This document shows positions 28,803 to 53,277 of a DNA stretch of 64,000 nt, in pieces. Position 1 is the first letter of the stretch. Every line of letters starts with the position of its first letter. Below the pieces are notes generated by a model. It had not been told where the DNA came from, ran no database searches, and saw only the letters and a program-made list of their open reading frames with translations. Position numbers and translations under genes: made by a program. Origin of the DNA: a virus; IMG/VR virus record IMGVR_UViG_3300028920_000045, positions 43,750 through 107,749 of that record. One strand, 5' to 3'.

Positions 28803-29660
28803 ATGGCACCCGGACTCGAAGAACTCCGGTCTCGGTTCTCGAAGGTCGGAAAGGCCGAGAGAGAGAAGAAGGCCGAAGAGGAACGGATCGCTCTCCGGGA
28901 GCGAGAGGTCAAGATGGTCGACCTCACCCTCAAGGGACTGGTCGACGCCCGGTCCGAACTCCGACTCCAGAACGAGGAGGCGGTTCGTCGAGGTGGAGAG
29001 GGTGTCGACGTCCCCGACTGTCTCGGGTTCTGTGAGGCCAGGAACCGGGAGAAGGCCAAGAGGGATACCTGTCGGGCCTGCGGGGTCCGTGGGAATTGTG
29101 AGTCGACCGACCGAGACCTCGGGGTCTGGAAGAACCTCAAGGCGTACGCTCCTCGGTGCTTCATACAGGGGCTCAACCGGAAGGACAGGAAGAACCGTAT
29201 CCAGTGCAACGCTTGTCCGTACAAGACCCCCTGTGTCGGCCATCGGGAGTACCGGGCTCTCCTGAAAAAGAGGGAGTTCTTCCAGAAGAAACAGAAGGAG
29301 AAGGAAGAGAGGGACCGGAAGGAAGAGGAGGCTCTCGCCCGAGCTGCCAAAGCACCAGACGAGATCAAGACCGACGTCGTCTTCGAGCGGTACGAGTATC
29401 GCGGGCTCACGGCCAAGGGCCGACGGTCCGAGAAGTTCTGGGAGGTCGCTCGTCGAGGACGGTTCCTCCTCCGACGGTGGGGGAAGATCAGGGGGACGAA
29501 GGTCGACCGTCTCCTCAACGTCTACTCGTCCGATACCGTGGCTCAAGAGAGGATGGACGAACTCACGTCCCAGAAGACGGGCAAGGGGTACCGGTACGAC
29601 AGCCGACCGACTCGGTCCGTCGTGATCCGCCCCGACTCGAAGACCTGGGTCGAGGCTTGA
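28803..29660 (+). CDS. WGR-domain protein with two four-cysteine modules
   Basis: This 285-aa protein's ATG follows GAAGGG by 6 bases. It opens with the peptide GLEELRSRF, shared in form with four other proteins here, then a charged helix. Two cysteine modules follow: C73, C90, C93, C99 and C119, C135, C138, C144 (each ending C-x2-C-x5-C). The C-terminal 90 residues match a WGR domain: FLLRRWGKIRGTKVDRL, then SSDTVAQERMDELTSQKT and GKGYR. WGR domains in PARP-like and MolR-like proteins bind nucleic acid ends or sense breaks. It lies alone after a terminator, so it probably begins a new unit. Function is inferred as nucleic-acid binding. Confidence 0.7.
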   Translation: MAPGLEELRSRFSKVGKAEREKKAEEERIALREREVKMVDLTLKGLVDARSELRLQNEEAVRRGGEGVDVPDCLGFCEARNREKAKRDTCRACGVRGNCESTDRDLGVWKNLKAYAPRCFIQGLNRKDRKNRIQCNACPYKTPCVGHREYRALLKKREFFQKKQKEKEERDRKEEEALARAAKAPDEIKTDVVFERYEYRGLTAKGRRSEKFWEVARRGRFLLRRWGKIRGTKVDRLLNVYSSDTVAQERMDELTSQKTGKGYRYDSRPTRSVVIRPDSKTWVEA

Positions 29661-29670
29661 CGGAGGACTC

Positions 29671-29988
29671 ATGCCAGAGTATACGAAGTGTCCCCATTGT
29701 GGATTTGCCGTCCCGATCCCCGGGACCAGGAAGAAGAGGACGACGAGGGTGATCGCTGGAGTGCCTGGTCAGTGGGAACCGACCGACTACCAGGGAGCAC
29801 GGAAGGGGGACGAGGTCCTTCTCGTTTTCGGGGTCGGGAAGAAGTCGCAGACCACTCGGGGCAGGGTCGTCCGGAAGTACCGGGGGATCTATCTTCGGAC
29901 CATCGGACCGCAACCGACGACTCGTACGTTCTTCGATGTCCCGACCGTGGACTCTGCGACGTCTGTCTTCCGGAGGGTGAGGACGTGA
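29671..29988 (+). CDS. Small protein with CPHCG motif, unrecognised
   Basis: This 105-aa protein starts at ATG after GGAGGAC. The start TKCPHCGFAVPIPG looks like half a zinc ribbon; no second pair follows. The middle (GDEVLLVFGVGKKSQTTRG then RVVRKYRGIYLR) looks like a small beta barrel, as in KOW/SH3-like folds. Its stop overlaps the sigma-like gene start. It may be a nucleic-acid-binding partner of that gene. Confidence 0.55.
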   Translation: MPEYTKCPHCGFAVPIPGTRKKRTTRVIAGVPGQWEPTDYQGARKGDEVLLVFGVGKKSQTTRGRVVRKYRGIYLRTIGPQPTTRTFFDVPTVDSATSVFRRVRT

Positions 29989-30710
29989 CCCGTTCCAGGA
30001 AGATCCCTCCGGAGAGGGTCCGACCCGAGGTGGCCGTCTCCCCGGAGAACGTCCGGAAGTACGTCCGACTCCTTCGGACCCAGGCCATGAGACTCGCCCG
30101 AGCCGAACGGACCGGGATCGATGACGCCGACCAGGAGATCGCACTCCTGGTTATGGAGGCTCTCCCGAAGTACGACCCCCACCGGGCGACGGTCCGACAG
30201 TGGGTCCGACTCTACGTCACCGGCCGGGTCCGAGACCGGGTCGCCTCGGCATCGGCCGTGAAGAACCGTCCGACCGTCTGGACGTACGACCAGGTCTGGG
30301 GATGGTACCGTCAACCGGCCCAGGCGACTCCCGGGATCGAGGAAGACCAGGAGTCCGAAGATCTGACCACGACCGAGGACCAGTTCTTCGAGTCCGAACG
30401 TCGTGTCCGATTCGAGGAGGCCATCGCAGAGGCAGAGTCCGAACTTCGACGAACGGTCCGACCTGGTCAGGCCGACATCGCCGTCAAGGTCTTTCGGACT
30501 CGTCTGGAGGAGGCGACGGAGACGGGACGACAGAGACGACAGAACCCCCGGGCGACGGTTGAGTCCCTGGGGATCTCGTACTATGAGGAGAGACGACTCT
30601 GGCTCCAGGGTCGGACCCTCCTCCGGAGAGCACTCCGACAGAGAGGAGAACTCGGAGCCCCGGAGAGGGTCCGACCCCGAACTATTCACCACAAGGGCGA
30701 ACGCCCGTAA
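29985..30710 (+). CDS. Sigma-factor-like protein
   Basis: This 241-aa protein starts at GTG overlapping the previous stop. Residues 28-86 read like sigma70 region 2: a helix RLLRTQAMRLARAERTG, then DDADQEIALLVMEALPKYDP, then RATVRQWVRLYVTGRVRDRV, matching the DLxQEgxxgLxxAlekyDp ... FxxwAxxxIrg pattern. The last 50 residues (RATVESLGISYYEERRLWLQ, GRTLLRRAL) resemble a region 4 helix-turn-helix. The segment between is long and acidic. Phage sigma factors redirect host RNA polymerase to late genes. The match is by eye and the domains are divergent, so an inactive or anti-sigma use is possible. Confidence 0.6.
   Translation: MTRSRKIPPERVRPEVAVSPENVRKYVRLLRTQAMRLARAERTGIDDADQEIALLVMEALPKYDPHRATVRQWVRLYVTGRVRDRVASASAVKNRPTVWTYDQVWGWYRQPAQATPGIEEDQESEDLTTTEDQFFESERRVRFEEAIAEAESELRRTVRPGQADIAVKVFRTRLEEATETGRQRRQNPRATVESLGISYYEERRLWLQGRTLLRRALRQRGELGAPERVRPRTIHHKGERP
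30676..30686 (+). promoter_or_regulatory. CCCGAACTATT motif upstream of 30738
   Basis: This word lies in the last codons of the sigma-like gene, 51 bases before the next start, and differs by one base from CCCGAACTATC found upstream of 48546 and 55641. It may be a promoter element. Being within coding sequence, it could also be chance. Confidence 0.25.
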
Positions 30711-30737
30711 CTGGAGAGAGAGGGAGGACGAGGAACG

Positions 30738-31958
30738 ATGGCGAAGAAGAAGAAGACGAAGTCCGAGGACGAGCACTCGATCCCGAAGTGTCTGGGGTTC
30801 CATGCCGGGGACTCGACCTGCGACGGTGACCCCGAGGCGGCTGACCCGGAGATGCGGGAGAGCTGCCCGGTCCGGGAGGAGTGCATCCGGCTCCAGTCCT
30901 ACGCCACCGAGACCGGGGAGGACGCGGACGAGCTGATCAAGGGCCACGCCTCGGTCGAGTCCGTGGTCCGGATGCTCGACGAGCAGGAGGACGACGACTC
31001 CGACGTCGAGGACGAGGACGACTCCGACGTCGAGGACGAGGAGGAGGACGTCGAGGACGAGGAGGAGGACGTCGAGGACGACTCCGACGTCGAGGACGAG
31101 GACGACGTCGAGGACGACGTCGAGGACGAGGACGAGAACCAGGAGTCCGAGGAGGACGAGGAGGAGGCCGAGCCGATGCCGACGAAGAAGACCAAGGACA
31201 AGACCAAGGACAAGACGACGACGAAGAAGGAGTCGACCAAGTCGAAGACCAAGTCGACGAAGAAGACCTCGAAGAAGTCGTCGAAGAAGAAGACGGCCCC
31301 CGCCAAGGACGAGACCTCGAAGAAGTCGTCGAAGAAGAAGACGGCCAAGGCCAAGACCAAGGACTCGGGGTCGAAGAAGACCTCGAAGAAGAAGACCGAG
31401 CCCGAGAAGCCCGAGTGCTTCGAGGACGAGACCAAGTACAACGGGAACGTGGACCCCTGCAAGTCCTGTCCGGTCGGGAAGGAGTGCAAGACCCGGGTCT
31501 ACACGAAGCGGACCCTCGCCCGTCGGAAGGCGAAGAAGAAGGAGACGGCCCAGGAGCCGCCGAAGAAGCCGAAGACGACCACGACCAAGGGGTCGACCCC
31601 GAAGTCGCCCCAGACGTCGGCTCCGGTCGCCACGGACGGCAACCCGGTCCTCGGGGTCGCCCACTCCCAGGGGTGGGACGTCCAGGACTTCGGGACGTAC
31701 CAGGAGGTCGGTCGGTTCGTCGGCCGGGGCCAGACCCCCGAGGTCTTCCTCCGGGTCTTCGAGGACGGGGCGTTCCTCCGGGTCGCCACCTCCGACACCT
31801 CCCCGGCCGGTCTCCGGGCCGACCCGTCATTCCTGGTCGAGACCCTCAAGGCGAAGAAGTCCGACGCCCCCGGCTTCGACTTCGACCTGGAGGTCAAGAC
31901 CAAGGGCGTCCGGAAGTCCCTGATCGAGACCCTGACCGACGAGCCCTCGATCATCTAG
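30738..31958 (+). CDS. Acidic/Lys-rich protein with two cysteine modules
   Basis: This 406-aa protein starts at ATG. It begins with Lys repeats, then a cysteine module (C18, C28, C43, C49). A long Asp/Glu/Val run covers 82-147, a Lys/Ser/Thr run (KKTSKKSSKKK type) 149-224, and a second module C227, C241, C244, C250. The C-terminal 100 residues are globular (about 300-406). Codon use is strictly GC-ending, like the ssDNA-binding protein at 36968, which has the same mix of acidic runs, KKTSKKK runs and a PxCF...CxxCx5C module. The two may share a tail of common origin. Possible role: abundant DNA-associated protein. No known family. Confidence 0.65.
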   Translation: MAKKKKTKSEDEHSIPKCLGFHAGDSTCDGDPEAADPEMRESCPVREECIRLQSYATETGEDADELIKGHASVESVVRMLDEQEDDDSDVEDEDDSDVEDEEEDVEDEEEDVEDDSDVEDEDDVEDDVEDEDENQESEEDEEEAEPMPTKKTKDKTKDKTTTKKESTKSKTKSTKKTSKKSSKKKTAPAKDETSKKSSKKKTAKAKTKDSGSKKTSKKKTEPEKPECFEDETKYNGNVDPCKSCPVGKECKTRVYTKRTLARRKAKKKETAQEPPKKPKTTTTKGSTPKSPQTSAPVATDGNPVLGVAHSQGWDVQDFGTYQEVGRFVGRGQTPEVFLRVFEDGAFLRVATSDTSPAGLRADPSFLVETLKAKKSDAPGFDFDLEVKTKGVRKSLIETLTDEPSII

Positions 31959-31968
31959 GAGGTCCGAC

Positions 31969-32586
31969 GTGGCCCCTTCCATCGACGACCTCCGGAAACG
32001 ATACCGTCCCGGACGTCGGAAGAAGGACGACGAGACCGAGACCTCTGGCCGTGGTGGTCGGGGGTCTCGGTCAACCCGTCCTTGTATCCGGTGCAAGGGC
32101 CAGGGTACGGTCGGGGGGGACGAGTTCTCGAAGACGGCCGAGGTCCGGTGTCCTCGGTGCGGGGGGACGGGGATCGATCCCGACACACCCCACGAAGAAC
32201 GACGGCCCCGACGAGCCGGGACCGAGGTTGACCCCGAGGACCTCTTCCGTACTCCCGACGAGAGGAAGAAGGCCAGGCAGAAGAAGGTCAACCCGAAAGC
32301 CCTGGCCGACAAGGTCCGGAAGAAGACCGGGAAGAAGTACAAGATCGTCGACGACGGCCGTGGTCACAAGGACGCGGTCCTCTACTTCGGGAAGTACTCC
32401 GGGTCGAAGGTCTCTCACCTGGTCGCGGACGAGGATGGACGGAGCTATCTTCTCTGGGTCCTCAAGGAAGGATTCGAGGACGAACTCAAGGAAGTCGTCG
32501 TCCACCGTCTCCACCTCGAAGGGTACGACCCGGCCGAACGGATGTCAGACCCCCGAGGTACCCTCCCCCGTCGGACCCCTTTCTAG
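31969..32586 (+). CDS. DnaJ-type zinc finger plus DUF3820-like protein
   Basis: This 205-aa protein starts at GTG. It opens with SIDDLRKRY, the shared N-terminal peptide. Residues about 38-70 have two C-x2-C-x-G-x-G units (CIRCKGQGT, CPRCGGTGI), as in DnaJ zinc fingers. The C-terminal part, with LYFGKYSGSKVSHLV then SYLLWVLKEGF, matches the FGKYKG...YLxW pattern of DUF3820-type domains, often found beside exonucleases. It ends just before the DNA polymerase gene, so a role with the polymerase is plausible. Confidence 0.6.
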   Translation: MAPSIDDLRKRYRPGRRKKDDETETSGRGGRGSRSTRPCIRCKGQGTVGGDEFSKTAEVRCPRCGGTGIDPDTPHEERRPRRAGTEVDPEDLFRTPDERKKARQKKVNPKALADKVRKKTGKKYKIVDDGRGHKDAVLYFGKYSGSKVSHLVADEDGRSYLLWVLKEGFEDELKEVVVHRLHLEGYDPAERMSDPRGTLPRRTPF

Positions 32587-32600
32587 CACCTCGGAGGTGC
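32586..32600 (+). promoter_or_regulatory. Hairpin covering the ribosome binding site of the polymerase gene
   Basis: GCACCT, loop CGG, AGGTGC forms a 6-bp stem between the stop of 31969 and the TTG start at 32605. The GGAGG that serves the TTG lies inside it (32593-32597). With a rare TTG start, this suggests polymerase is kept at low level, or is made only when ribosomes finishing the upstream gene melt the hairpin. Confidence 0.45.
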
Positions 32601-32604
32601 CGTC

Positions 32605-35600
32605 TTGAGTCCCACTGCTGACCCCTGGGTCAATCTTCACGTTCACTCTATGTTCTCCCTCCTCGACGGGGTCGGGTCGTATGAGGACTATGCGAAGAGG
32701 TTGATCCGGTGGAGGGAGAAGGTCGGACTCAAGGGACCGGGGTACCTCGCCGCGACCGAGCACGGGTCGATGCGGGGGATCGTCCGTCTCCAGAAGGTCG
32801 CAGAGGAGAACGACCTCCGACCCATCTTCGGGATCGAGTTCTACACGGCCGAGGACCTCACCGTTAAGTCTCTCTCCGACGCGGACAAGAGTCTCGTCCA
32901 GAAGGAACCGTTCCGGGAGAGACGGTCGTTCCAGGCTCGACTCGAAAAGTACCGGGGAATCCGACCCCGGTGGCACCTCACCGCCTGGGCCTTGAACGAG
33001 ACCGGACTCCGGAACCTGATCCGTCTCTCCTCGATTGCCTGGATAGACGGGTTCTATTACAAGCCCCGGATCGACTTCCCCACCCTGGAGAAGTACTCGG
33101 ACGGGATCGCCATCGGGTCGGCTTGCCTGGCCGGTCCTCTCTGTTCTCCGGTCCTCGACGGTGAGCCGTTGGTCGCCGTCGAGAACGCGGTCTTCCTCAA
33201 GGACGTCTTCGGTGATCGGTTCTACGTCGAGATCATGGCGAACGGTATCCCCGAGCAGGACCGGGCGAACCGTGCTCTCGTCCGTATCGCCCGACGACTC
33301 GACCTCCCGTTGATCGCCACGGTGGACAGTCATTACACACAGCCTCGGGACTGGAGACTCCAGGAGGCGCTACTCTGTGTCCAGACGAACGACAAGATCG
33401 CCAACCCTAAACGGTTCCAGTTCTCCTCTCGGGACTTCTGGTACAAGACCGGAGACGAAGTCCGAAAGGGGTTCCGCCAGTACCATCCCTGGCTCAAGAC
33501 CTCGGTCGTCCGACGGGCGATTCGGACCACGGCCGAACTCGCGGAGAGGTGCGAGGCGACCTTGACCCTCGACCCCTTGGCAGCTCTCCTTCCGACGCCG
33601 TCCGACCGGGACACGACACCCGAGGAGGACTTCGAGGCTCTCCGGGACCTGTGTGTCGAGGGGTGGGTCTGGAGACGGATCGAGGACCGGGCCAAGTTCG
33701 TCGCGGGGGTGAGGAAGTCCTCGGTCTCTCGGGTCGTGAAGGAGTATAAGAAACGACTCGCCCACGAACTCCGAGTCCTCCGGGAGAAGAAGTTTTCCCG
33801 GTACATCCTGGTCCTGTATGACCTGGTCCAGTGGGCGAGGGATCAAGGGATCTTTGTAGGACCAGGACGAGGGTCGGCGGCGGGGTGTCTGGTCGCGTAC
33901 CTCGTCGGGGTGACGTCGATGGACCCGGTCGAGCACGGACTCCTATTCGAGAGGTTCCTCCCTCCTGGTCGAGTGGACTTCCCGGACATCGACGTCGACT
34001 TCGAGAAGGAGAGACGACCCGAGGTGATCCAGTACCTCGTCGACAAGTACGGTCGAGGGAGCACGGCCCAGATCTCGACGTACTCGACCATGAAAGGGAG
34101 GGGTTGTTTCCGGGACGTTGCCAGGGTGTACTCGGTCTCCACGACCGAGACGAACCGGGTGGCCTCTGCCATCCTCCAGAGACTCCCAGGACACGAACGA
34201 GAGGACCACTGTATCGAGGACTCTCTCGATACGTCTCCCGAGTGCAAGGCCTTCCGGAAGAAGAACCCGGTCGTCTTCTCGGTGGCCGAACGTCTGGAGG
34301 GGACCATCCGTCAAGTCGGTCTCCACGCGGCCGGGGTCGTGGTCACTCCGAACCCGCTGATCGAGATCGTCCCTCTGGAGTCACGGGTCGACCCAGACAC
34401 GAAGGCCCGGGTCCCGGTGATCGCTGTCGACTTCCGGGACGCCCAGGAACTCGGGTTGATCAAACTCGACGCTCTCGGTCTCAAGCACCTCACGGCAATC
34501 CGTCACTCCCTCCAGGCCGTCGAGGATCTGTACGGTGGGGCGATCACCCTGGAGGACCTGGAGTCGGAGCACTACCAGGACCCGAAGGTCCTCGGCGCGT
34601 TTGACGATCCGGCGAACCGGGTGGGGGTCTTCCAGTTTGACTCTCCGACCATGTCGTCGATCATGACCTTCCCGGTGACCAGATTCGAGGACCTGGTCGC
34701 ACTCAACGCACTCAACCGTCCCGGGGCCATGAGGTCAGGACTCGCCCGACGGTACGCCGCCCGAGCCCGGAAGGGAACCAAGCCGAAGAAGGTCCATCCG
34801 ATCCTCGACCGGATCACGTTCCCGACTCTCGGGGTCCTTTGCTACCAGGAGCAGGTGACCAGGGTCTTCGTCGAGCTGGCAGGGTACGACCCCGGGGACG
34901 CCGACAAGATCCGGAAGAAGATCGGAAAGAGTGAGGGTGAGAAGGCCATCGCTCCGGAGAAGACGAAGTTCGTGACCGGTGCTGTCGACCGTGGTCTGGA
35001 CGAGGACAAGTCGAAGGTCCTCTTCGCCCAGATCCTCAAGTTCGGCGGGTACGCTTTCAATAAGTCCCACGCCGCTGCGTATTCGGCTCTGGCATACTGG
35101 GAAATGAGACTCCTCGTCGAGTTCCCCGACACGTTCTTCCTCGGTCTCCTCCAGGCCGAGGATCAACTTCCGAAGGTCGCCCGGTATATCGAGACGTCGT
35201 CTCGGCACGGTGTCGACGTTCTTCCTCCGGACGTGAACGAGTCGACGACCCGGTACCGTCTGGTCCACCGCAACACGATTCGATGTCCCCTCAACGGACT
35301 CAAGGGTATCGGTGCGAAAGCTGCCGACTCGATAGTCAAGGGTCAACCGTTTCGGTCCGTGGCCGACCTGGTCAACCGAACGGACTCCCGGGCCGTGACG
35401 TCGAAGGCCCTGGAGGTTCTGGCCCAGGCAGGAGCCCTCGACTCCCTGGTCCCGAATCGGAGGTACCTGGTCGAGAACGCAAAGGACCTGGCCGAGAGGA
35501 TCAGGAAGAAGGACGGCGAGTCGGTCGACACCGAGGTCAGTCTCTCCGGTTCGTCTCCCGACTACTCGAAGACGGAGAGGATAAGACGGGCGGTCGAGAT

Positions 35601-36333: not shown

Positions 36334-36345
36334 CACGAACCCTGG

Positions 36346-36361: not shown

Positions 36362-36394
36362 AGAGGGACACGAACCCCAGGAGGAAAAGAGACC

Positions 36395-36943: not shown

Positions 36944-36967
36944 TCGGACCAGAGAAGGAGAGAAGAC

Positions 36968-38260
36968 ATGGGAACTGACCTCGACAAGCTCCGGAAGTAC
37001 AAGAAAGACAGAGCCACGGGGAGGAACCTCCTGATCCCCGAGGGCGACTCCCTCGTGTACATCGCCCCGCCCGCCCGGGAGGACTGGGACCTCCCGTTCC
37101 TGGAGACGGCCGTTCACTTCGGGTTCCCCGGTGGTCCGAAGCTCTGCCTCAACTCCGACCGGAACCCGCTCCTCAAGGACCCCGAGTTCCTCAAGGTGGC
37201 GAAGAAGGCCGGGGTCGACGTCAACGGTCCCTGCAAGATCTGTCAGAAGCTCTCGGGGAAGCCCGGGAAGCCGGGTCTCTGGGACACGGACAAGGAAGCC
37301 GCCCGGAAGATCTCCGCGAGCAACCGGTTCCTGATGATCGCCGGTCGCCTCTGGGGTCGGAAGGACTCGACCGACTCGTACTCCCCGGTCGAGCCCTTCG
37401 AGCTGAAGCCCCTTCCCGTCGGCAAAAAGATCTGGGAGGCCGTGGTCGACATCTTCCTCGACCTGGAGGTCGACCTCACCGATCCCCTCGCCGCCATCCT
37501 GATCAAGTTCCACCGGGAAGGGACGGGCCTGGAGTCCCAGTACAACATCACCGCCGACCCGAAGACGACGAAGAAGCCCCTCCGTCTCGGGAAGGCCGAG
37601 CGCCGGATGATCCGGGAGGCGCTCGCGGAGGGGTCCGACTGTGATCCCTACCTCGCCGCCCTGGAGTGGTACACCTCCCCCGAGGAGATGTCCGCGCTCC
37701 TGGAGGGGGTCGACCTCGACGACGACGACGAGGACGACGACGACGACGACGAGGTCGAGGCCAAGCCGCCGAAGAAGTCGAAGAAGACCTCGAAGAAGAA
37801 GACCTCGAAGAAGAAGTCGAAGAAGAAGCCCACGTGCTTCGGGATCGACTACTCCTCCGACGACGAGGACTGTGAGGACTGTGAGTTCCGGTCCGAGTGC
37901 GCGGACGAGTCCGGGCACGAGTCCGACGACGACGAGGACGAGGACGAGGACGACGAGGTCGACGAGGTCGAGGACGACGACGAGGACGACGAGGAGGAGG
38001 ACTCCGACGACGAGGACTCCGACGACGACGACGAGGACGAGGACGACGAGGACGACGAGGACGACGAGGACGAGGACGACTCCGACGAGGACCTGGAGGA
38101 CCTGGAGGCGGCTCTCGACAAGAAGACCGGCAAGGGCAAGAAGTCGAAGAAGAAGCCGGTCAAGTCCTCGAAGAAGAAGACCTCGAAGAAGAAGACCTCG
38201 AAGAAGACCTCGAAGAAGAAGTCGAAGAAGACCCCCGCCCGCAAGCGGCCGAAGAAGTAG
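36968..38260 (+). CDS. gp32-like single-stranded DNA-binding protein
   Basis: This 430-aa protein starts at ATG after AAGGAGAG. The N-terminal peptide DLDKLRKYKK resembles the basic start used by gp32 for cooperative binding. A zinc site H50, C60, C89, C92 (HFGFPG...LC...CKIC) matches the His-Cys-Cys-Cys order of T4 gp32. The core (NRFLMIAGRLWG, VEPFELKPLPVGKKIWEAV) fits an OB fold. The tail is far longer than in T4: acidic runs, KKTSKKK runs and a four-cysteine module (C290, C302, C305, C311). The acidic part should recruit partners, as gp32's does. recA follows. Strict GC-ending codons fit an abundant protein. Confidence 0.75.
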   Translation: MGTDLDKLRKYKKDRATGRNLLIPEGDSLVYIAPPAREDWDLPFLETAVHFGFPGGPKLCLNSDRNPLLKDPEFLKVAKKAGVDVNGPCKICQKLSGKPGKPGLWDTDKEAARKISASNRFLMIAGRLWGRKDSTDSYSPVEPFELKPLPVGKKIWEAVVDIFLDLEVDLTDPLAAILIKFHREGTGLESQYNITADPKTTKKPLRLGKAERRMIREALAEGSDCDPYLAALEWYTSPEEMSALLEGVDLDDDDEDDDDDDEVEAKPPKKSKKTSKKKTSKKKSKKKPTCFGIDYSSDDEDCEDCEFRSECADESGHESDDDEDEDEDDEVDEVEDDDEDDEEEDSDDEDSDDDDEDEDDEDDEDDEDEDDSDEDLEDLEAALDKKTGKGKKSKKKPVKSSKKKTSKKKTSKKTSKKKSKKTPARKRPKK

Positions 38261-38282
38261 CCGTCCCGGTGCCAGGTTCCCA

Positions 38283-44590: not shown

Positions 44591-44598
44591 GGGGAGAC

Positions 44599-45579
44599 GT
44601 GTCAAAGCCAACCTTGATCGTCGATGGGAATAACGTCCTCTATCGGATGTCGTACGCTCTCTTGACCCAGTCTCTCTCGGTGATCCTCGACGAGACCCGA
44701 GTCGAGACCGGGCCGACGTTCCTCACGTTCAAGACCCTGGTCGAGATCGCGGACGAGTACGACGCGGTCCCCTTGGTCTGCTGGGACCCGGAGTCCGGAC
44801 GAGGTCGTCTCCAGAGACGGAAGATACACAAGGGATACAAGTCGGGACGGGAACCGGCGAACGAGATCGACCGGGACTTCCATCGGGAGGTCACGGACCA
44901 GAGGGAGATCGTCCAGACCATCCTCGGGACGGCCGGGGTCTTCCAGACGAGAGCCCTCAAGGGGTGGGAAGCCGACGACGTGATCGCCCGACTCGCCCGA
45001 CAGCTATCCCGACGAGGACGTGAGGTCCTGATTCTGTCAAACGACAAGGACCTCGTCCCTCTCCTCGCCCTCCCCGGTGTCCGGATCGTCGCCATCGGTT
45101 CCCGGAAGTGGTCTCAACCCGGAGAGAGGTACGAGGTCCGCGACGAGGAGTGGGTCAAGGCCCAGTACGAGGGACTTACCCCGGACAAATGGATCGAGTT
45201 CCGGTCTCTGGCCGGTGACCCGTCCGACAAGGTCCAGGGGGTGAAGGGGATCGGGAAGGTCTGGGGAGTCAAGCTCGTCCAGGAGTACGGGTCTGCCCTC
45301 GAAGCGGTCCAGGTTGCGGAGAAAGCCGAGAAGGCACTGGGAGGGTACGGGCTCCTCCTCGACAAAGGAGGGGTCCGTCGGAAACTCCTGGGACAGACCG
45401 ACCAGGTCAAGGCAGCTCGGAAGGTCTTGACCTTGAACTATCGAGCGCCCTTCGAGTGGTTATCCCGAGAGGGAGACCGGAAGAAAACCCAGGCTTTGAT
45501 CCGACGGTACCGGTTCCGGTCATTCATGGCCGGGACTCTTCGGGTCCAGCTCAACGGACTCCTCGATGCGATTACTTGA
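44599..45579 (+). CDS. 5'-3' exonuclease / flap endonuclease
   Basis: This 326-aa protein starts at GTG after GGGGGAGA. FEN/PIN motifs: LIVDGNNVLYR, VCWDPESG with the basic arch RRKIHKGYKSGR, and KGWEADDVIARLARQ. LILSNDKDLVPLL and a helix-hairpin-helix VQGVKGIGKVWGVKL follow. Such enzymes remove RNA primers and flaps; a separate gene fits a phage whose polymerase (DnaE-type) lacks this activity. It overlaps the UDG gene by 14 bp. Confidence 0.9.
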   Translation: MSKPTLIVDGNNVLYRMSYALLTQSLSVILDETRVETGPTFLTFKTLVEIADEYDAVPLVCWDPESGRGRLQRRKIHKGYKSGREPANEIDRDFHREVTDQREIVQTILGTAGVFQTRALKGWEADDVIARLARQLSRRGREVLILSNDKDLVPLLALPGVRIVAIGSRKWSQPGERYEVRDEEWVKAQYEGLTPDKWIEFRSLAGDPSDKVQGVKGIGKVWGVKLVQEYGSALEAVQVAEKAEKALGGYGLLLDKGGVRRKLLGQTDQVKAARKVLTLNYRAPFEWLSREGDRKKTQALIRRYRFRSFMAGTLRVQLNGLLDAIT

Positions 45580-46162
45580 CCGACTCCGACGGAACGTCGA
45601 GGGGTGTGACCTCTGTCCCGACCTCGTCGAGTCCAGGACGAGGATCGTCTTCGGTGACGGACCGGACGACGCCGACTGGGTCGTGGTCGGTGAGTCCCCC
45701 GGTGCGACCGAGGATAAGGTCGGCTCACCGTTCCGGGGGAAGGCCGGTCGCAAGGCTCGGATGGCGATGGTCGACGAGGGTCTCGATCCGGAGTCGGCGT
45801 TCTGGACGAATGTCCTCCTCTGTCACCCCGAGAAGAACCGGGACCCTCGACCCGAGGAGGTCCGGAACTGTTCTCTCCGTCTCCTCCTCACCCTGTCGAT
45901 CCTCCGACCGAAGGTGGTCCTCACGTTCGGTCTCCCGTCGTTCAAGGCTCTGGCCGGGGTGACGGGTCGGGTGTCGATGTCGGAGTACCGGGGACGTCGG
46001 TTCCGGTACCGGGTCAAGACCAGGTCGGGGGGATACCTCGACACGGTCCTCGTCCCGACGTATCACCCGGCGTACATCGCACGACCGACCGGGAAGCCGT
46101 ACGAGGCCGACTGGAGGGAGGACCTCCGACTCGTCCGACGTCTTCTGGAGAGGTCACCGTGA
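45566..46162 (+). CDS. Uracil-DNA glycosylase, family 4, 4Fe-4S
   Basis: This is a 198-aa protein. Four cysteines (C14, C17, C86, C102) sit as in family 4 glycosylases that hold an iron-sulphur cluster. Motif A is VVGESPGATEDKVGSPF (normally GEAPGxxED) and motif B is PTYHPAYIAR. The enzyme removes uracil from DNA, starting base excision repair, and shows that this phage's DNA is not uracil-substituted. It overlaps the flap endonuclease gene and likely acts with it. Confidence 0.88.
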   Translation: MRLLDRLRRNVEGCDLCPDLVESRTRIVFGDGPDDADWVVVGESPGATEDKVGSPFRGKAGRKARMAMVDEGLDPESAFWTNVLLCHPEKNRDPRPEEVRNCSLRLLLTLSILRPKVVLTFGLPSFKALAGVTGRVSMSEYRGRRFRYRVKTRSGGYLDTVLVPTYHPAYIARPTGKPYEADWREDLRLVRRLLERSP

Positions 46163-46446: not shown

Positions 46447-46457
46447 GGAGCCGTGAT

Positions 46458-47246
46458 ATGACTAGACAGGACCAGGAACGACTCAAGGTGATCGACCGAC
46501 TCCTCCGGGAAGACGTGGTCGACAAGATCGTCCCCTCCCCGCACCGGTCCGAGGGGTGGGGCAAGGGACGTCCGGATCGACCGACTCCCTGGGGGGTCGT
46601 GGTCCACTTCACCGGGGGACCTCACGGGACCGCTGCCAAGTGGTTCCAGGACCCCCGGGCCAAGGCGTCGGCCCATGTCGTGATCCAGAGGGACGGGACC
46701 GTCGTCCTCTGTGTCCCCGTCTTCGACCGGGCCTGGCACGCAGGAGACTCGGTCTGGAAGGGAGAGCGGTACTGTAATCGGTTCACCTTCGGGATCGAGC
46801 TGGAGAACTGGGGACCCATCGTTCGTCGAGGAGACGGATACTTCGTCTGGCCCCCGGTCGATCCGAAGACCAAGGTCCGACAGTACCGTCGTCGGTTCCG
46901 AGGGACGGGTATCCATCATGCCCCGTTCCGGTCCGACTTCGAGTTCTGGGAGTCGTACGACCCCAGGCAGATCGACGCACTCGTCGAGGTCCTCAAGATC
47001 CTGGTCGCCCCTCCCGGTGACTGGACTCCTCTCGACGTGGGGAACGTGGTCGGGCATGAGCAGGTCGCACCGGGCAGGAAGATCGATCCCGGTCCTGCCT
47101 TTCCGTGGAAGGAGGTCGTCGCCCGGGTCTTCGAGATCGACCCGTACCTCGACACGGACGCCGACCCAGACGAGGACGAGGACGACGAGCACTTCTTCCA
47201 GATCCTCGACGGGACGTCGAAGGACAGAGGGGACGGTGTCGCATGA
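46458..47246 (+). CDS. Endolysin, N-acetylmuramoyl-L-alanine amidase
   Basis: This 262-aa protein has an amidase_2 (AmpD / T7 lysozyme-like) domain: H50 in GVVVHFTGG, ASAHVVIQRDG, RAWHAG, FGIELEN, and H200 ... D210 in GHEQVAPGRKIDPGPAFPW. H50, H200 and D210 are the expected zinc ligands. It would cut the amide bond between sugar and peptide in peptidoglycan. There is no signal peptide or binding domain, so it needs a holin; candidates are at 16853 and 48039. The last 30 residues are acidic. It stands among accessory genes, not beside the holin candidate. Confidence 0.88.
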   Translation: MTRQDQERLKVIDRLLREDVVDKIVPSPHRSEGWGKGRPDRPTPWGVVVHFTGGPHGTAAKWFQDPRAKASAHVVIQRDGTVVLCVPVFDRAWHAGDSVWKGERYCNRFTFGIELENWGPIVRRGDGYFVWPPVDPKTKVRQYRRRFRGTGIHHAPFRSDFEFWESYDPRQIDALVEVLKILVAPPGDWTPLDVGNVVGHEQVAPGRKIDPGPAFPWKEVVARVFEIDPYLDTDADPDEDEDDEHFFQILDGTSKDRGDGVA

Positions 47247-47869
47247 GTCCCCTCACGACAGTCGTCTCGTATCCGGAGAGGGGTCCGTTCGGTGACCACA
47301 AGTTCCGGGGGAATTGCTCCGGGTATCTGGTCAAGGACCTCGTCGAGTACTTCGAGCCGAAGACCCTCCTCGACCCGATGGAAGGTGGAGGGACCTCACG
47401 GGAGGTCTGCGAGGCTCTCGGGGTCGAGTACGAGGGACACGACCTCGCCCAAGGCGACGATCACGACGTCTTCGAGAAGCCCTGGGGGGACCGTCGATTC
47501 GACCTGGTCTTCTGGCATCCCCCGTACGCGTCGATGATCAAGTACTCGGACAATCCACTCGACCTCTCCGGTCTCACCGTCCCCGAGTTCCGTGAGGCTC
47601 TGATCGCTGTCGCGGACCTCCTCTTCCGCGAGGCCGTCGTGGACGGCGGTCGACTCGCCGTCCTGATCGGGACCATGAGGAAGAACGGACGGATCTTCGC
47701 CTTCGCCCGTGACTTGATCACGGACTGGAGGGAACCGTCCGAACCGGAGATCGTCAAGGTCCAGCACCATGTCACCTCGAAGTCGACTCGGGCGGCTCAA
47801 CTCTTCGGGAACCGGTTTATCCCGATTGTCGACGAGAGAGTCCTCGTCTGGAGGAAGCCATGCCCGTGA
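47243..47869 (+). CDS. DNA methyltransferase-like protein
   Basis: This 208-aa protein's ATG overlaps the endolysin stop. The SAM-binding motif I is LLDPMEGGGTSREVCEALG. The catalytic loop reads FDLVFWHPPY, where N6-adenine and N4-cytosine enzymes have D/N/S-PPY; His in the first position is odd. No target-recognition domain is obvious. It may protect phage DNA from host restriction, or be a changed enzyme with another substrate. Confidence 0.65.
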   Translation: MSPLTTVVSYPERGPFGDHKFRGNCSGYLVKDLVEYFEPKTLLDPMEGGGTSREVCEALGVEYEGHDLAQGDDHDVFEKPWGDRRFDLVFWHPPYASMIKYSDNPLDLSGLTVPEFREALIAVADLLFREAVVDGGRLAVLIGTMRKNGRIFAFARDLITDWREPSEPEIVKVQHHVTSKSTRAAQLFGNRFIPIVDERVLVWRKPCP

Positions 47870-48042
47870 TCGGCCGAGAGTCTTTCAAAGTCCGTTGCAT
47901 CCGATGTCAGTCCGACAACGTCGTCGAGAAGAAGGTCCGTCCTCCCTCGACGGCCGACAAACCAGCACAACACGGACCGGGGTACTTCCGCGTCCAGAGG
48001 ACGTGTCGGAGGTGCGGGTTCGTCTGGGAGAAGAAGACATGA
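47860..48042 (+). CDS. Small zinc-ribbon protein
   Basis: This 60-aa protein overlaps both neighbours. C13-I-R-C16 and C49-R-R-C52-G make a classic zinc ribbon (VRCIRCQSDNVVEKK, RTCRRCGFVWEK). It is probably nucleic-acid binding. Confidence 0.6.
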   Translation: MPVIGRESFKVRCIRCQSDNVVEKKVRPPSTADKPAQHGPGYFRVQRTCRRCGFVWEKKT

Positions 48043-48488
48043 TCGACACTCTGATCGACCGAGTCCTCGACCCGAAGTTTCTGGTCAAGGTCCTGGTCTT
48101 CGGATTCGCGGTCCTCACCCTGATCACGATAAGGACCGACGTGAGGAACGACGAACTCGTCGACCAGGTCGAGACCCTCCGGGCCTGTCTCGGTCCCGTC
48201 GAAGGTCGTCCCCTCGTTCTCGACGGGGAGGTCGACCCGTGCGCTAGAGTCGTGGACCTGGAGAAGAGGGTCGACTCTCTGTCCTGGAGATCAAAGGGTC
48301 TCTTTATGGATTGCTCCGACCTCTCCGAGTCCTGTGTCCGTATGACCGCGATCATCGACGACGCCCTCCGAGACTTCATACGGACCCACGTCGACCCGGC
48401 CGAGATCGAGAGAGCCCGTGACGGGATCGAGAGGTACGCCCGACGCCGAGGACCCCCAGAGGGCGGTGTCGGTGGAGAGGAAGACTAG
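48039..48488 (+). CDS. Single-span membrane protein
   Basis: This 149-aa protein's ATG overlaps the previous stop. There is one membrane segment at about 14-31 (FLVKVLVFGFAVLTLITI), then a helical, probably extracytoplasmic part with four cysteines and a coiled coil (NDELVDQVETLRACLG, CARVVDLEKRVDSL). Its shape fits a spanin-like or holin-associated protein near the endolysin, but this is only a topology argument. Confidence 0.5.
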   Translation: MIDTLIDRVLDPKFLVKVLVFGFAVLTLITIRTDVRNDELVDQVETLRACLGPVEGRPLVLDGEVDPCARVVDLEKRVDSLSWRSKGLFMDCSDLSESCVRMTAIIDDALRDFIRTHVDPAEIERARDGIERYARRRGPPEGGVGGEED

Positions 48489-48516
48489 CGGGAACGGGTC
48501 CTCTGCTCCCTGGAGT

Positions 48517-48527
48517 CCCGAACTATC
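48517..48527 (+). promoter_or_regulatory. CCCGAACTATC motif upstream of 48546
   Basis: This 11-base word lies in a 57-bp gap. It is also found exactly at 55613-55623 and resembles the CTCGAAGTATC core of the 18151 and 36346 repeats. Here it contains TATCCT, identical to that of 18163. No -35 box at 16-18 bp was seen. Confidence 0.35.
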
Positions 48528-48545
48528 CTCCGAAGGAGTGCGAGG

Positions 48546-48923
48546 ATGATCACGGCCCTCGACGTACTGGAAGCCCTGACCGAGACCATGTCGTCGAAGA
48601 CGACTGTCCACCGAGCGGCTCGAAGTCTGGCCCGTGACCCCGTCTTCCTCCAGAGGGTAGCCGCCAAGCTGCGGAAGAAGGTCAAGGCCCAGATCGAGGA
48701 GAAGTCGTTGACCGAGAACGAACTGACAGGAGACCTCGTCGGGTTCTGCTCGACGACGACTCGGGCCAGGGAAGCCGCCGTCCGACTCCGGACCGTCTTC
48801 CACGTTCTCCACCGACTCCCGGACAAGAAAGAAGTCCCGAGGGTGAAGCTACCTCCGGAACTGATCGAGAGACCGAAGAAGAAGCCGAAGACGAAGAAGC
48901 ACGGAAGGAGAGTCGTCCGATGA
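48546..48923 (+). CDS. Unrecognised basic protein with ERPKK tail
   Basis: This 125-aa protein starts at ATG. It is helical in its first 90 residues (VHRAARSLARDPVFLQRVAA) with a basic C-terminus containing LIERPKKKPKTKKHGRR, related to the RERPK tails of other proteins here. Probably nucleic-acid associated; no family. Confidence 0.55.
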   Translation: MITALDVLEALTETMSSKTTVHRAARSLARDPVFLQRVAAKLRKKVKAQIEEKSLTENELTGDLVGFCSTTTRAREAAVRLRTVFHVLHRLPDKKEVPRVKLPPELIERPKKKPKTKKHGRRVVR

Positions 48924-49810
48924 TCGACAAGACGGATCAGTACAATCGTTTCCTCGGGGGGTGGGTCGGTGCGTTCCTGGGGAACGTCCTCGGGTCGTAC
49001 ACGGAGGGGAAGTCCCCCGCCCAGGTCGAGGACTCCTTCCCCCGGGGACTCCAGGTCCTCCCGGCTCCGACCGCACCGTCGGGTCTCGCCCGAGTCCTTC
49101 GGGAGACGGGTGAGGCGATCTCTTCGAGGACGTTCCCTCGTCCTCCGAGGAAGTCGGACGTCGGTCTCCTGTCCCCGGTCCTCCGGGCGATCACCCCGGG
49201 ACTCTCCTCGGTTCCGGCCGGTCTCTCCCCCGACGAGCTGGACGAGTTCGTCCTCCGGTCCATCGGCCAGGACGACCCACCCTTCCCGGCCCCGTCCGTC
49301 CTCCTGGCCCTCTGGTACGCCCGGGTCCTCCGGGTCGTGGTCACGACCGACGACGACGGACTCCAGGAGGTCGACGAGTACCTCTTCGGACCCATCGACA
49401 AGATCGAACGCCCCTCCCCGGCTTTCATCCGGGCCAAGGACGACGACCAGTCGTACGTATGGGGAGAGGCTCGTCTCCTCTTGGCCGAGGGTGTCGGGAC
49501 AGGTCTCGCCACGCTGGAGCGTTTCGACTTCACCGACCCGGTCCTCGATCCCTACACCCTCGCGGCCGGTGTCGTCGCCTGGGCGACCGACGTCCGGGAC
49601 GAGACCTTCGCCCGGTCCCTGGCCTTCCTGGTCTCCCGTGGTGGGGACTCCTCGTCTCTCGGGATGATCGGAGGGGCGGTCCTCGGAGCCCGGATCGGAT
49701 TCGACGATCTCGACCCCGACCTCCTGGAAGGGCTCACCGGTCTCGACCGTCTGGTCGAGGAGGGGTCCCGTCTCTTCCAGGCCGCACAGGAGTACAAGTC
49801 GGGGGAGTGA
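48920..49810 (+). CDS. ADP-ribosylglycohydrolase-like protein, altered active site
   Basis: This 296-aa protein's ATG overlaps the previous stop. The start GGWVGAFLGNVLGS and the late motif GGDSSSLGMIGGAVLGARIG (from G241) align with the GxxLGDxLG and GGDTDTxxxxxGAxxGAxxG motifs of DraG/ARH enzymes, which remove ADP-ribose from proteins or nucleic acid. Metal ligands seem changed: Asp to Asn in the first motif and GGDTD to GGDSS in the second, and no clear TDDT follows the N-terminus. It may be an inactive or specialised relative. A counter-defence role is possible but unproven. Confidence 0.62.
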   Translation: MIDKTDQYNRFLGGWVGAFLGNVLGSYTEGKSPAQVEDSFPRGLQVLPAPTAPSGLARVLRETGEAISSRTFPRPPRKSDVGLLSPVLRAITPGLSSVPAGLSPDELDEFVLRSIGQDDPPFPAPSVLLALWYARVLRVVVTTDDDGLQEVDEYLFGPIDKIERPSPAFIRAKDDDQSYVWGEARLLLAEGVGTGLATLERFDFTDPVLDPYTLAAGVVAWATDVRDETFARSLAFLVSRGGDSSSLGMIGGAVLGARIGFDDLDPDLLEGLTGLDRLVEEGSRLFQAAQEYKSGE

Positions 49811-49811
49811 C

Positions 49812-50153
49812 GTGACTCGGGACTCGAAGAAGAAGTGCGAGCACTGCGGGGGACCGAACCCGTGTATCCTGGTCCGTCCGAAGGGGAAGCCCGCGAAGTG
49901 GTACTGCGTCAAGGTCGGGTGTCAGTCGGCCGCGTCGACGTACTACGGACAGATCTTCAGCGAGAAAGACCTGGTCGGGATCAGCACTGACCCGGAGCCG
50001 CCGAGTCCCCCGACTCCCAGGAAGACCAGGGTCAAGAGGGAACGACCGACACCGACCAAGGTCAAGAGGGAGAGGCCGAAGAAGGCCCCGACCCGTGAAC
50101 GGCCGAAGAAGACCGTCGTCCGAGAGAGACCTCGTCGAGTCGTGAAGGGGTAA
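49812..50153 (+). CDS. Zinc-binding protein with repeated RERPK tail
   Basis: This 113-aa protein starts at GTG. The first 40 residues have CEHCGG, PC, WYC and GC cysteines, a small zinc fold. From about 60 on the protein is Pro/Arg/Lys-rich with four RERP repeats (KRERPTPTK, KRERPKKA, TRERPKKT, VRERPRRV). This is the richest example of the RERPK motif in the phage. It is likely disordered and nucleic-acid binding. Confidence 0.6.
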   Translation: MTRDSKKKCEHCGGPNPCILVRPKGKPAKWYCVKVGCQSAASTYYGQIFSEKDLVGISTDPEPPSPPTPRKTRVKRERPTPTKVKRERPKKAPTRERPKKTVVRERPRRVVKG

Positions 50154-50156
50154 CCC

Positions 50157-50936
50157 ATGCCTGCCGGGAAGTCCGTCCTCAAGCTGCCACGGGCCGAACT
50201 CCGACTCCTCGTCGCACTGGTCCGACAGTGGCTCACCGAGCACAAGACCGACGCCGAGATCCTGGAGACCATCGAAGAGTACGGGATCACCGACATCCGG
50301 GAAGTCCGAACCCTCAAGAGACTGGTCAAGGACGAGGACCGAGACGAGGTCAAGGGGAAGGAACCCCTCGACGTCTTCGTCGAGTACCGCCGAGACCTTC
50401 TCGCCATCGCCCGAGACGCGGACGACTTTATCGAGAGGATGTCGACCAAGGAAACGCAACAGTCGACGATCCCGTCTGCCCTCCGAGTGAAACTCGACGC
50501 CCTCGACAAGATCGCCCAGAGAGGGATCGACCTGGGGATCTTCCGAGCCCGACCGAAGGGGAGGGGGGTCCTCCTCGGGGGGATCATCCTGGCCGACCTG
50601 TCCGACGAAGAACTCCTCGGAGTGGTCGAGCAGATCACCGACAACGTCCGAGGTCTCCGAGAGGTAGCGAGTCGACCCCTCCTCCCGGCCGGTGGATACC
50701 GTCGGACGAAGACCCCCGCCGATTACAAGCCGACGAAGGACGAGAACGAAGACGACGTCGTCGAAGCCGAGGTCGTCGAGGAGGCTCCGGTCACAGTCCC
50801 ACCCGAGCAGAGGAAAAAGAGGAAGCCCTCTCCTGTCCGTGAGAGACCGAAGAGGGTCAAGGACAAGATGTCGATCACGACCTCGGACGGGGAGACCGAC
50901 GGACGAGCCCGACCTCGTCGACGGAGACCGACCTAG
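50157..50936 (+). CDS. HTH-like protein with RERPK tail, unrecognised
   Basis: This 259-aa protein starts at ATG. Residues about 10-60 look like a helix-turn-helix (VRQWLTEHKTDAEILETIEE then an ITDIREVRTLKRL helix). A helical middle follows (LRVKLDALDKIAQRGIDLGI), then an acidic stretch and a basic end with PVRERPKRVKDK. The order of a DNA-binding N-terminus and helical oligomerisation part resembles small terminase subunits, but no large terminase is nearby, so this remains open. Confidence 0.55.
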   Translation: MPAGKSVLKLPRAELRLLVALVRQWLTEHKTDAEILETIEEYGITDIREVRTLKRLVKDEDRDEVKGKEPLDVFVEYRRDLLAIARDADDFIERMSTKETQQSTIPSALRVKLDALDKIAQRGIDLGIFRARPKGRGVLLGGIILADLSDEELLGVVEQITDNVRGLREVASRPLLPAGGYRRTKTPADYKPTKDENEDDVVEAEVVEEAPVTVPPEQRKKRKPSPVRERPKRVKDKMSITTSDGETDGRARPRRRRPT

Positions 50937-51694
50937 TGCCGATGCGGATACCGTGGGGATGGGAGATCGCCGTCCCGGTCATGCTCAACTTGGCCGAGGT
51001 CTGGTCCGAACGTCCTATCGTTCGTCCGTCCAGTGAAGAGATCTCCCAGGACGAGGGTATCCCGAACGGTGGACGGTGGCTCTCCCAGGCCCTCGCCAAG
51101 CTGGTCCGAGCCAAGCTCCTCACGCACCAGAAGAGGGGGCAGAGAGGATACCGTCTCCAGAGGTCACCGTCGAGGATTAACATGTACTCGGTCCTCATGG
51201 CAGGGCCGACCCGGTCCGAGGCGAGACCGAGCAACCGGATCTTTGATCACCGAGTTCTCTTCCTCGACCGGTCCGACCAGGACCGGACCCGGGAGTCGAG
51301 AGGACGGAACCCGAGCGCCTGGTTATTCGACCGGACCGAGGACCTCGTCGTCGAGTTCCTCAAGCGGACGACACTGGCCCAGGTCCTCGCCGTCAACCTC
51401 GACCTCGTCCCCCGAGTGGTCTACACCGACGAAGGGAAGACGAACCAGCACCTCCGGTCAATCCGGGAGTCGACGCACAAGATCCTCCGAGAGTTCTGTC
51501 CCCTGATCGAGACGACGAAGAGTCGACTCCAGGTCTGGCCGTATCGAGACGTCGCAGACGCCGTCAAGGATGGGTTCCGGGCGTGGTACGAGGACCTCCC
51601 CGAGAACCGACGGAGGGAGCCGAGGTACCTCCTGGACCGAGACCTCGGTTCCCTCCGTCTCTCGATCCTCGACCGGGTGTCCGATGCCGGTTAG
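50936..51694 (+). CDS. Rrf2-like winged-helix regulator with extra C-terminal domain
   Basis: This 252-aa protein's GTG overlaps the previous stop (an in-frame ATG lies six bases later). The N-terminal 85 residues follow the Rrf2 pattern: VPVMLNLAEVWS, SSEEISQDEGIPNGGRWLSQ, ALAKLVRAKLLTHQKRGQRG, YRLQRSPSRINMYSVLMAG. The cysteines that hold an iron-sulphur cluster in many Rrf2 proteins are missing. A C-terminal half of unknown type follows (FLKRTTLAQVLAVNLDLVPR). It may be a DNA-binding switch protein or a plasmid-Rep-like winged helix. Confidence 0.55.
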   Translation: MPMRIPWGWEIAVPVMLNLAEVWSERPIVRPSSEEISQDEGIPNGGRWLSQALAKLVRAKLLTHQKRGQRGYRLQRSPSRINMYSVLMAGPTRSEARPSNRIFDHRVLFLDRSDQDRTRESRGRNPSAWLFDRTEDLVVEFLKRTTLAQVLAVNLDLVPRVVYTDEGKTNQHLRSIRESTHKILREFCPLIETTKSRLQVWPYRDVADAVKDGFRAWYEDLPENRRREPRYLLDRDLGSLRLSILDRVSDAG

Positions 51695-52100
51695 GAAGTT
51701 TGGGCCGACCCTCCCGGGTACGACCGAGGTGGACGAGTCCCCGATCACGAAGTACGAGGAGGACCTCAAGCGGGGACGAGTCACGACGAAACAGATCCTC
51801 GACGCCCTCGGTGGTCTCGGGGTCATGGTCGAGAACGACCGGGACATCCTCGACGGTGGTATCCTCTACACCCTCTCGGTCGAGGTCCCAGGAAGTCGAG
51901 CGGGCGAGGTCCGGTCCTCCTCGTTCAAGATCACGGACGGGGAAGCCGAGGTTCTCTCGAAGAGGCGACTCGAAGTCAAGGTCGCATACCGTCTCTTCTG
52001 GATCGGGACTCTCGTCTATCTGGACGCCCGAGCCCGACGGGGGAAGGAGACCGTCCGCAAGATGTCGGACGGGACCGAACTGGTCGAGGTGGAGCTGTGA
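51684..52100 (+). CDS. Unrecognised 138-aa protein
   Basis: The ATG overlaps the 3' end of the Rrf2-like gene by 11 bases. It has a mix of helix (TTKQILDALGGLGVM) and strands (YTLSVEVPGS, LEVKVAYRLFWIGTLVYLD). No cysteines or motifs. It is translated in series with neighbours. Confidence 0.55.
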   Translation: MPVRKFGPTLPGTTEVDESPITKYEEDLKRGRVTTKQILDALGGLGVMVENDRDILDGGILYTLSVEVPGSRAGEVRSSSFKITDGEAEVLSKRRLEVKVAYRLFWIGTLVYLDARARRGKETVRKMSDGTELVEVEL

Positions 52101-52435
52101 GGTTCGTCGTCCGACAGTTCCGGGCCTGGGAGAGAGCACTCGCCTCGGAGTTCTGTCACGTCGACCCAGGGGTCAACGTGGCCGTCGTCGAGTCGACCCC
52201 CTGGAGGGGACGTCCGTCCTTCGAGGTCCTCGGTGTCCTCCGAGTCCACCTCCTCCGGTTCGCACACCTCGCCGGATGCGGCCAGGACGTCAAGGACCAG
52301 ATCCAGGAGGACGGACCCGGAGCCCCGTTCCCGGTCGAGATCGTCGGTGGTCTCCGGACCGAGGGTGTCTGGAGGTACGTCGACCGACGTCCCGGAGCTG
52401 CCAAGTCGTACCGGTCTCTCGTCGGTGGACAATGA
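52097..52435 (+). CDS. Unrecognised 112-aa protein
   Basis: It starts at GTG overlapping the previous stop and ends overlapping the next ATG. It looks alpha/beta, with CHVDPGVNVAVVES and VLGVLRVHLLRFAHLAG segments. Two cysteines. No family. Confidence 0.55.
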   Translation: MRFVVRQFRAWERALASEFCHVDPGVNVAVVESTPWRGRPSFEVLGVLRVHLLRFAHLAGCGQDVKDQIQEDGPGAPFPVEIVGGLRTEGVWRYVDRRPGAAKSYRSLVGGQ

Positions 52436-53277
52436 GCCTCGACAGGATGCGACGTCGGTTCTCGGCTGGTCGAGAGACCGAGCCTCGACCCGAGTGTTTC
52501 GGTGACTTCGACGAGGACCTGGTCGAGACTCGGGAGTGTGAGGACCGTCCGTGTCCTCACCGTCGTCGGTGCCAGGCTACGACTCCCGACGAGCAGGATG
52601 TCCCGGACTGTTTCACCCGGTACGACCTGACCCTCCCGAAGTGTCTGGGGTGTGACCTCAAGCCGTGGTGTATGGACGAGTCGATCAGGGAACTCGTCTT
52701 CGAGGGAGATGTCGAGGGACCTGGTCCGGAGTCTCGGCCGGGGTACGAGAGGGACGACCCGGATACCTGGGGGAAGGCCGTCCTCAAGGAACGGAACCGG
52801 GTCCGGGAGTGGCTCAAGAACCGACCCGGGTGCTTTGGGACGTACTCGAAGAAGGGTCGGACCGACGACCGTGACTGTCTCGACTGTGAACTCGACAAGG
52901 TCTGTGTCGAGTGGTCACGGTCTCCTCTTCGGGCGAAGGGGTCTCACCTCTACGGCTTGTCGGCCCAGGAGATCCATGCCGAGGAAGAGGAGGCAAGGAT
53001 CGCACCGTTCCGAGCCCTCCAGGAGTCGATCCGGGGATACGCCCAGAAGATCACGAACCGGATCTCTGACCCGGACGAGATCTCCGAGAACCTTCCGGTC
53101 GTGGCCGAGGCGATCACCCTCGGAGCGACCAGGAACGGGGAGAACGAGGTCGAGACCGCTAGGGTCTTCGACTTCCTGGTCCAGAGGAGTCGGGTCACGT
53201 CGATCCGGTTCTTCCGGGAGGTTGTCGCCTCGCGGGGTGAGTATCGACAAATCATGGCCGATCACGGGATCGGTTGA
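52432..53277 (+). CDS. Protein with three four-cysteine modules
   Basis: This 281-aa protein's ATG overlaps the previous stop. It begins MSLDRMRRRFSAG, the shared N-terminal peptide. Three copies of the P-x-C-F module follow: C22, C36, C41, C47; C60, C71, C74, C80; C134, C149, C152, C158. The last two have the exact C-x2-C-x5-C end; the first has C-x4-C-x5-C. The C-terminal 110 residues are helical and soluble. Modules like these probably hold zinc or an iron-sulphur cluster. It shares both its start peptide and module type with the WGR protein (28803) and the SSB (36968). No known family. Confidence 0.65.
   Translation: MSLDRMRRRFSAGRETEPRPECFGDFDEDLVETRECEDRPCPHRRRCQATTPDEQDVPDCFTRYDLTLPKCLGCDLKPWCMDESIRELVFEGDVEGPGPESRPGYERDDPDTWGKAVLKERNRVREWLKNRPGCFGTYSKKGRTDDRDCLDCELDKVCVEWSRSPLRAKGSHLYGLSAQEIHAEEEEARIAPFRALQESIRGYAQKITNRISDPDEISENLPVVAEAITLGATRNGENEVETARVFDFLVQRSRVTSIRFFREVVASRGEYRQIMADHGIG

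Follow-up and report, generated by a model that had tools for sequence, protein, structure and literature searches.

The gp32 protein is the textbook viral single-stranded-DNA-binding protein (SSB). Small units held by four cysteines commonly bind zinc, WhiB proteins are typical of Actinobacteria, and in the iron-sulfur loop of MutY and EndoIII the first cysteine spacing is x6. Cas4 and AddB bind Fe-S, and a DUF3799 relative with the same cysteine layout was crystallised with zinc (PMC3466216). The C-terminal region of T4 gp32 is its recruiting part, where residues bind proteins such as Dda (PMC11551737). Here we describe a four-cysteine unit, the CFG module (consensus P-x-C-F-G-x-[YF]-D-x(4-6)-C-x2-C-x5-C, about 27-30 residues), found by translation in eight copies in four genes of the window; outside it, another gene of this virus encodes a fifth carrier, which brings the total to nine copies. 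The window is the whole 64,000-nucleotide stretch of DNA that was analysed, positions 43,750-107,749 of a virus record of 107,749 bases. Carrier genes and modules are as follows.

28803..29660, + strand: WGR-domain protein, 285 aa, two modules in the N-terminal half (Pfam WGR E 2.2e-7, residues 203-266)
29013..29099, + strand: WGR module copy 1, PDCLG...CRACGVRGNC, C73/C90/C93/C99 (translation)
29151..29234, + strand: WGR module copy 2, PRCFI...CNACPYKTPC, C119/C135/C138/C144 (translation)
30738..31958, + strand: acidic/Lys-rich protein, 406 aa, two modules (translation)
30783..30884, + strand: variant module of the acidic protein, C18, C28, C43, C49, no C-x2-C (translation)
31410..31487, + strand: acidic-protein module PECFEDETKYNGNVDPCKSCPVGKEC (translation; sub-threshold Pfam WhiB E 0.1)
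36968..38260, + strand: gp32-type single-stranded-DNA-binding protein, 430 aa (AlphaFold and Foldseek; SSB-core profile E 6e-45)
37829..37900, + strand: SSB module PTCFGIDYSSDDEDCEDCEFRSEC, within the acidic tail at the C-terminus (translation; AlphaFold)
52432..53277, + strand: 52432 product, 281 aa, three modules, function unassigned (translation)
52489..52572, + strand: 52432 module copy 1, C-x4-C (translation)
52603..52671, + strand: 52432 module copy 2 (translation)
52825..52905, + strand: 52432 module copy 3 (translation)
G000:C1:29007-29621 (= L002 9107-9721), outside the window: fifth module protein, KPWCFGQTDQLDEGEVCTECDHLDDC, directly after a capsid-like gene

The original prediction had placed eight copies in these four genes and described two of them as deviating, and translation of all four genes bore out both the sites and the deviations, namely the missing C-x2-C pair in copy 1 of the acidic protein and the C-x4-C of copy 1 in the 52432 product. 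The strict pattern P-x-C-[FL]-xn-C-x2-C-x5-C matched six of the eight window copies, and four cysteines are present even in both deviant copies. No other window frame of at least 40 codons contained the strict pattern. It was matched four times in the non-overlapping gene set, from which greedy selection had excluded the 52432 frame, and six times when that frame was added, while residue shuffles of gene-like frames produced it in 0 of 2000 trials.

The WGR, acidic-protein and SSB genes lie inside or adjoin a replication-recombination block that encodes a DnaE-type polymerase III alpha, a RecA-like recombinase, SbcD- and SbcC-like proteins, a PD-(D/E)XK endonuclease, a 5'-3' exonuclease and a UDG-family glycosylase. 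A UDG-superfamily glycosylase (PF03167) is encoded at window positions 45566-46162, near this block. The 52432 product had no significant match in Pfam, PHROG or NCBIfam, and no close relatives of it were found in viral contigs and GenBank phages; a match to RickRoss (E 1) was rejected as a relative, as it has no such motif. The 305-aa product encoded 3' of this gene (54272-55189) had no Pfam match. Separately, Lys-rich runs of the SKKKTSKKK type stand beside acidic stretches in the products of 36968-38260, 30738-31958 and L002 9107-9721, and may serve these proteins as another low-complexity tether in common. A 113-aa product (49812-50153) contains C-x2-C-x5-C without the upstream P-x-C and is probably a different small Cys finger.

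In G050, a syntenic relative of the window's virus, all eight cysteines are kept in the orthologs of the SSB (58% identity) and of the acidic protein (L311, 43% identity), the four of the deviant copy included. This conservation shows the deviant copy to be a genuine variant rather than the product of decay. The ortholog of the capsid-adjacent fifth protein keeps 4 of 4 cysteines at 46% identity, and that of the 52432 product 9 of 12 at 33%. This last ortholog (L312 1704-2906) has two modules with two other Cys-rich segments between them, CGHC...C...C and CKDC...C...C; the idea that these inserts form another cluster domain was rejected, as neither Pfam nor the PDB gave support. In the WGR ortholog both modules are absent as one block. 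Similarly, one SSB (L004) is without the module though it is nested on starred branches among carriers, as sister to L218, and in its phage the module is borne by a different protein, one of 222 aa encoded directly after a primase-like gene. The block absence from the WGR ortholog and the L004 case therefore indicate that the module comes and goes independently of its carrier protein; because presence of the module guided the sampling of the SSB tree, in which many branches are long, only "at least two changes" are forced and counts of such events are rough.

The gp32-like identity proposed for the 36968 product was upheld by its predicted fold, as Foldseek matched the AlphaFold model to RB69 gp32 (2a1k, E 1.9e-7), T4 gp32 (1gpc, E 2.0e-6) and 8gme (E 2.6e-6). 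Pfam found no match on the sequence itself, PF08804 included, and PF08804 was matched by an SSB relative (L037, E 1.5e-15). A histidine and three cysteines of the OB core (H50, C60, C89, C92) are almost invariant among 51 SSBs. In the model of the window SSB, residues 253-282 form a disordered tether, after which the module is ordered with a pLDDT of about 94. Of five models of the isolated module, the best reached a pLDDT of 88.7 and the other four a mean of only 66-71, and a Foldseek search of the PDB with the 32-residue model, a very short chain, found no match. The AlphaFold models predict a compact domain of about 30 residues on a disordered tether beyond the gp32-fold core.

The original prediction saw one phage reusing a module, an emphasis that proved wrong, as the pattern and HMM search it called for, run on viral contigs, found the module widespread. 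It is found across many unrelated viruses, where gp32-type SSBs are its main carriers, and is not confined to this phage. In-frame codon patterns for P-x-CFG-x8 and P-x-CFG-x9, each followed by C-x2-C-x5-C, were found in 102 and 103 public viral stretches, and an out-of-frame control with the same specified bases and equal information in 9, an in-frame to out-of-frame ratio of about 11. With CFGx[FY]Dx5Cx2Cx5C as a degenerate codon pattern, 39 viral stretches were retrieved; the surveys required CFG and two spacings, so that these counts are biased toward such forms. Bacterial and archaeal genomes, 257 billion bases in all, yielded 10 matches to this degenerate pattern, two of them plausible modules (L056 and L063, both on archaeal MAG contigs); the other eight were rejected as lying in different frames or in no open frame. 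In tblastn searches of phages and plasmids with short modules, a method of low sensitivity for queries of 35-43 aa, the only match was a GenBank phage, Thermus phage phiLo, whose product phiLo_162, accession AYJ74014.1, has its module at the extreme C-terminus. The SSBs of the SPO1, Lysinibacillus, Flavobacterium, Microcystis and Pseudomonas phages examined do not carry it. The module is rare in cellular genomes and GenBank phages. Taken together, we hold it virtually certain that the module is real and widespread.

A module HMM accepts about 136 reading frames, 67 with an SSB core and 69 without, a set that also served to train the HMM and in which L010 and L062, at least, look like chance frames. 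In SSB carriers the module sits in the C-terminal tail, and some SSBs hold four or five copies. Pfam domains on the other carriers include SAP (3.1e-10), ParB_N (8.2e-13, with HTH_ParB), dGTP_diPhyd_N (8.4e-33, a dNTP hydrolase) and Sigma70_r2 in two different proteins, and one further carrier has a weak winged helix match. Stand-alone module genes of 30-48 aa also occur (L015, L035, L038, L056, L100). At least two module frames (E <= 0.01) were found in 20 of 50 whole records, with the window's virus at the top of the list with five module genes. A family of proteins about 120-190 aa long was met repeatedly; its members combine a tandem pair of modules with an N-terminal part that looks helical (L023, L093, L113, L131, L132, L195, L204, L221, L224, L231, L234, L246); the longer proteins L091, L104, L118 and L188 have tandem modules too, with a SAP domain in L118.

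A metal or cluster site had been suggested from the outset, and a cysteine-based site is the natural reading. Profile searches gave 76 matches outside the search patterns; 36 span the full module, and all 36 keep all four cysteines, with no Cys-to-His swap among them. The conserved pattern makes it very probable that the four cysteines bind one metal centre. Below significance, profile searches of the PDB returned WhiB, WhiB1, WhiB3, WhiB4 and MutY (3n5n), all [4Fe-4S] proteins, and one unrelated GEF. The profile-profile score to WhiB was 20.7, whereas 60 column shuffles that left the cysteines in place reached at most 18.2; the similarity covers only the C-x2-C-x5-C half and stays below every threshold. 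Among 30 WhiB sites the module HMM recognised 12; among 231 other sites with C-x2-C-x5-C it recognised 8, of which two are likewise WhiB. Because the nearest profile matches are [4Fe-4S] proteins of the WhiB and MutY type and the HMM prefers WhiB sites, we lean toward [4Fe-4S] rather than zinc. Membership of the WhiB family (PF02467) itself was rejected: the acidic protein, phiLo_162 and the WGR protein scored 13.6, 12.6 and 8.0 bits against the Pfam cut-off of 23.6, the window SSB and the 52432 product had no match, and the G[VI]WGG turn that follows the cluster is absent from all window copies, one WGR copy having GVWKN without GG.

The most likely reading is a transferable cysteine-metal mini-domain used for docking, with [4Fe-4S] preferred to zinc; metal binding, cluster type and docking are the conjectural parts. 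The module would be an autonomous unit whose four cysteines hold one metal centre, and tailed phages would fit it as a flexibly tethered accessory to DNA-handling proteins: mainly gp32-type SSBs, at whose C-terminal tail it sits, with SAP, ParB, sigma-like, WGR and winged-helix proteins as further carriers. There it could act as a recruitment patch that gathers several carriers at single-stranded DNA and replication sites. Docking is suggested because the tether lies on the recruiting end of the SSB, the module is shared among the DNA-handling proteins of one virus and is repeated, and it is gained or lost as a block. The original prediction had offered docking as one option; the tethered SSB tails, the several DNA-handling carriers in one phage and the block gain and loss support it only indirectly. 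We put docking as the main role at somewhat under an even chance, its alternatives being sensing, DNA binding and a purely structural part, and the proposal as a whole, metal, cluster and docking included, at about even. A Cys4 knuckle stabilised by zinc, tethered and used for docking in the same way but free of iron-sulfur chemistry, is a possible though less probable account: the Cas4/AddB layout has been seen with zinc in DUF3799 (PMC3466216), and the near-invariant H50, C60, C89 and C92 of the SSBs recall that the gp32 core has a zinc site, but no copy among the 36 swaps Cys for His and the nearest solved profile matches are [4Fe-4S] proteins.

Local likeness to WhiB, and modules on sigma-like and ParB-like proteins, would also fit a redox or nitric oxide switch, in which cluster loss or damage alters SSB or regulator activity and ties phage replication or transcription to host stress. 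We find this quite improbable, as the module has neither the G[VI]WGG turn nor a sigma-contact region, the carriers include a Thermus phage whereas WhiB is typical of Actinobacteria, and sensing alone hardly accounts for nine copies in one phage. Most of the partner domains that were identified act on DNA, which could point to a nucleic-acid-binding finger adding DNA or RNA affinity; however, most SSB copies, the window's included, are Asp/Glu-rich and lie in acidic tails, disfavouring DNA contact, and the WGR copies are basic, so that module charge is not conserved, making such a finger unlikely. A four-Cys motif is short and single matches are easily found, but an origin by chance, or from the mere composition of tails that contain cysteines, is refuted by the shuffles (0 of 2000), the out-of-frame control (ratio about 11) and the cysteines kept in orthologs at 33-58% identity, and its probability is negligible. 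Returning to the docking mini-domain, a bolder form of it, rather doubtful at present, is a virus-specific docking code in which interchangeable [4Fe-4S] mini-domains, put by phages on their SSB and other DNA-handling proteins as a mark, assemble the viral replication centre and may switch it with redox state.

If such a code exists, it would mean that domain shuffling has spread an iron-sulfur interaction module of a new kind. A large and unrecognised set of phage SSBs carries an extra Cys4 unit, predicted to fold, exactly at what is the recruiting end in gp32, raising the question of whether phage SSBs recruit through an iron-sulfur or zinc clip. Once named, the domain would provide an annotation for some phage "hypothetical" proteins and a marker of replication-linked genes, and tests are practical because one carrier, Thermus phage phiLo (T. 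thermophilus HB8), is in culture.

The original prediction did not recognise the module as a named domain, and in Pfam, NCBIfam and PHROG no model covers it on the proteins scanned. Three PHROGs of unknown function with faint matches (phrog_1318, phrog_13400, phrog_35714) may be module members, and the open literature that was searched held no description that we could find. Like WhiB (Wbl, PF02467), which also occurs in phages (PMC8612146), the module is small, has four cysteines in C-xn-C-x2-C-x5-C and CPV/CxVR-type residues around the last three; unlike WhiB, it has a shorter first loop and no G[VI]WGG, and is used as a repeat or as an accessory fused to other proteins, in most cases SSBs. 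With the iron-sulfur loop of MutY and EndoIII it shares C-x2-C-x5-C and the weak profile match to 3n5n, but the first spacing is about x10-16 in all module copies, C-x6-C-x2-C-x5-C does not occur, and that loop is part of a glycosylase domain whereas the module is free-standing. The Fe-S staple of AddB, Cas4 and Dna2, a [4Fe-4S] site in DNA-processing proteins, likewise combines one distant cysteine with three clustered ones (PMC3466216); its distant cysteine lies across the whole domain, whereas that of the module is only 10-17 residues off, and Pfam found no RecB-type nuclease domain in any carrier scanned. Finally, the window SSB resembles gp32-type SSBs in its core fold, its acidic C-terminal tail and its His-Cys3 zinc-site residues, and differs from them in the additional Cys4 module that its tail carries.
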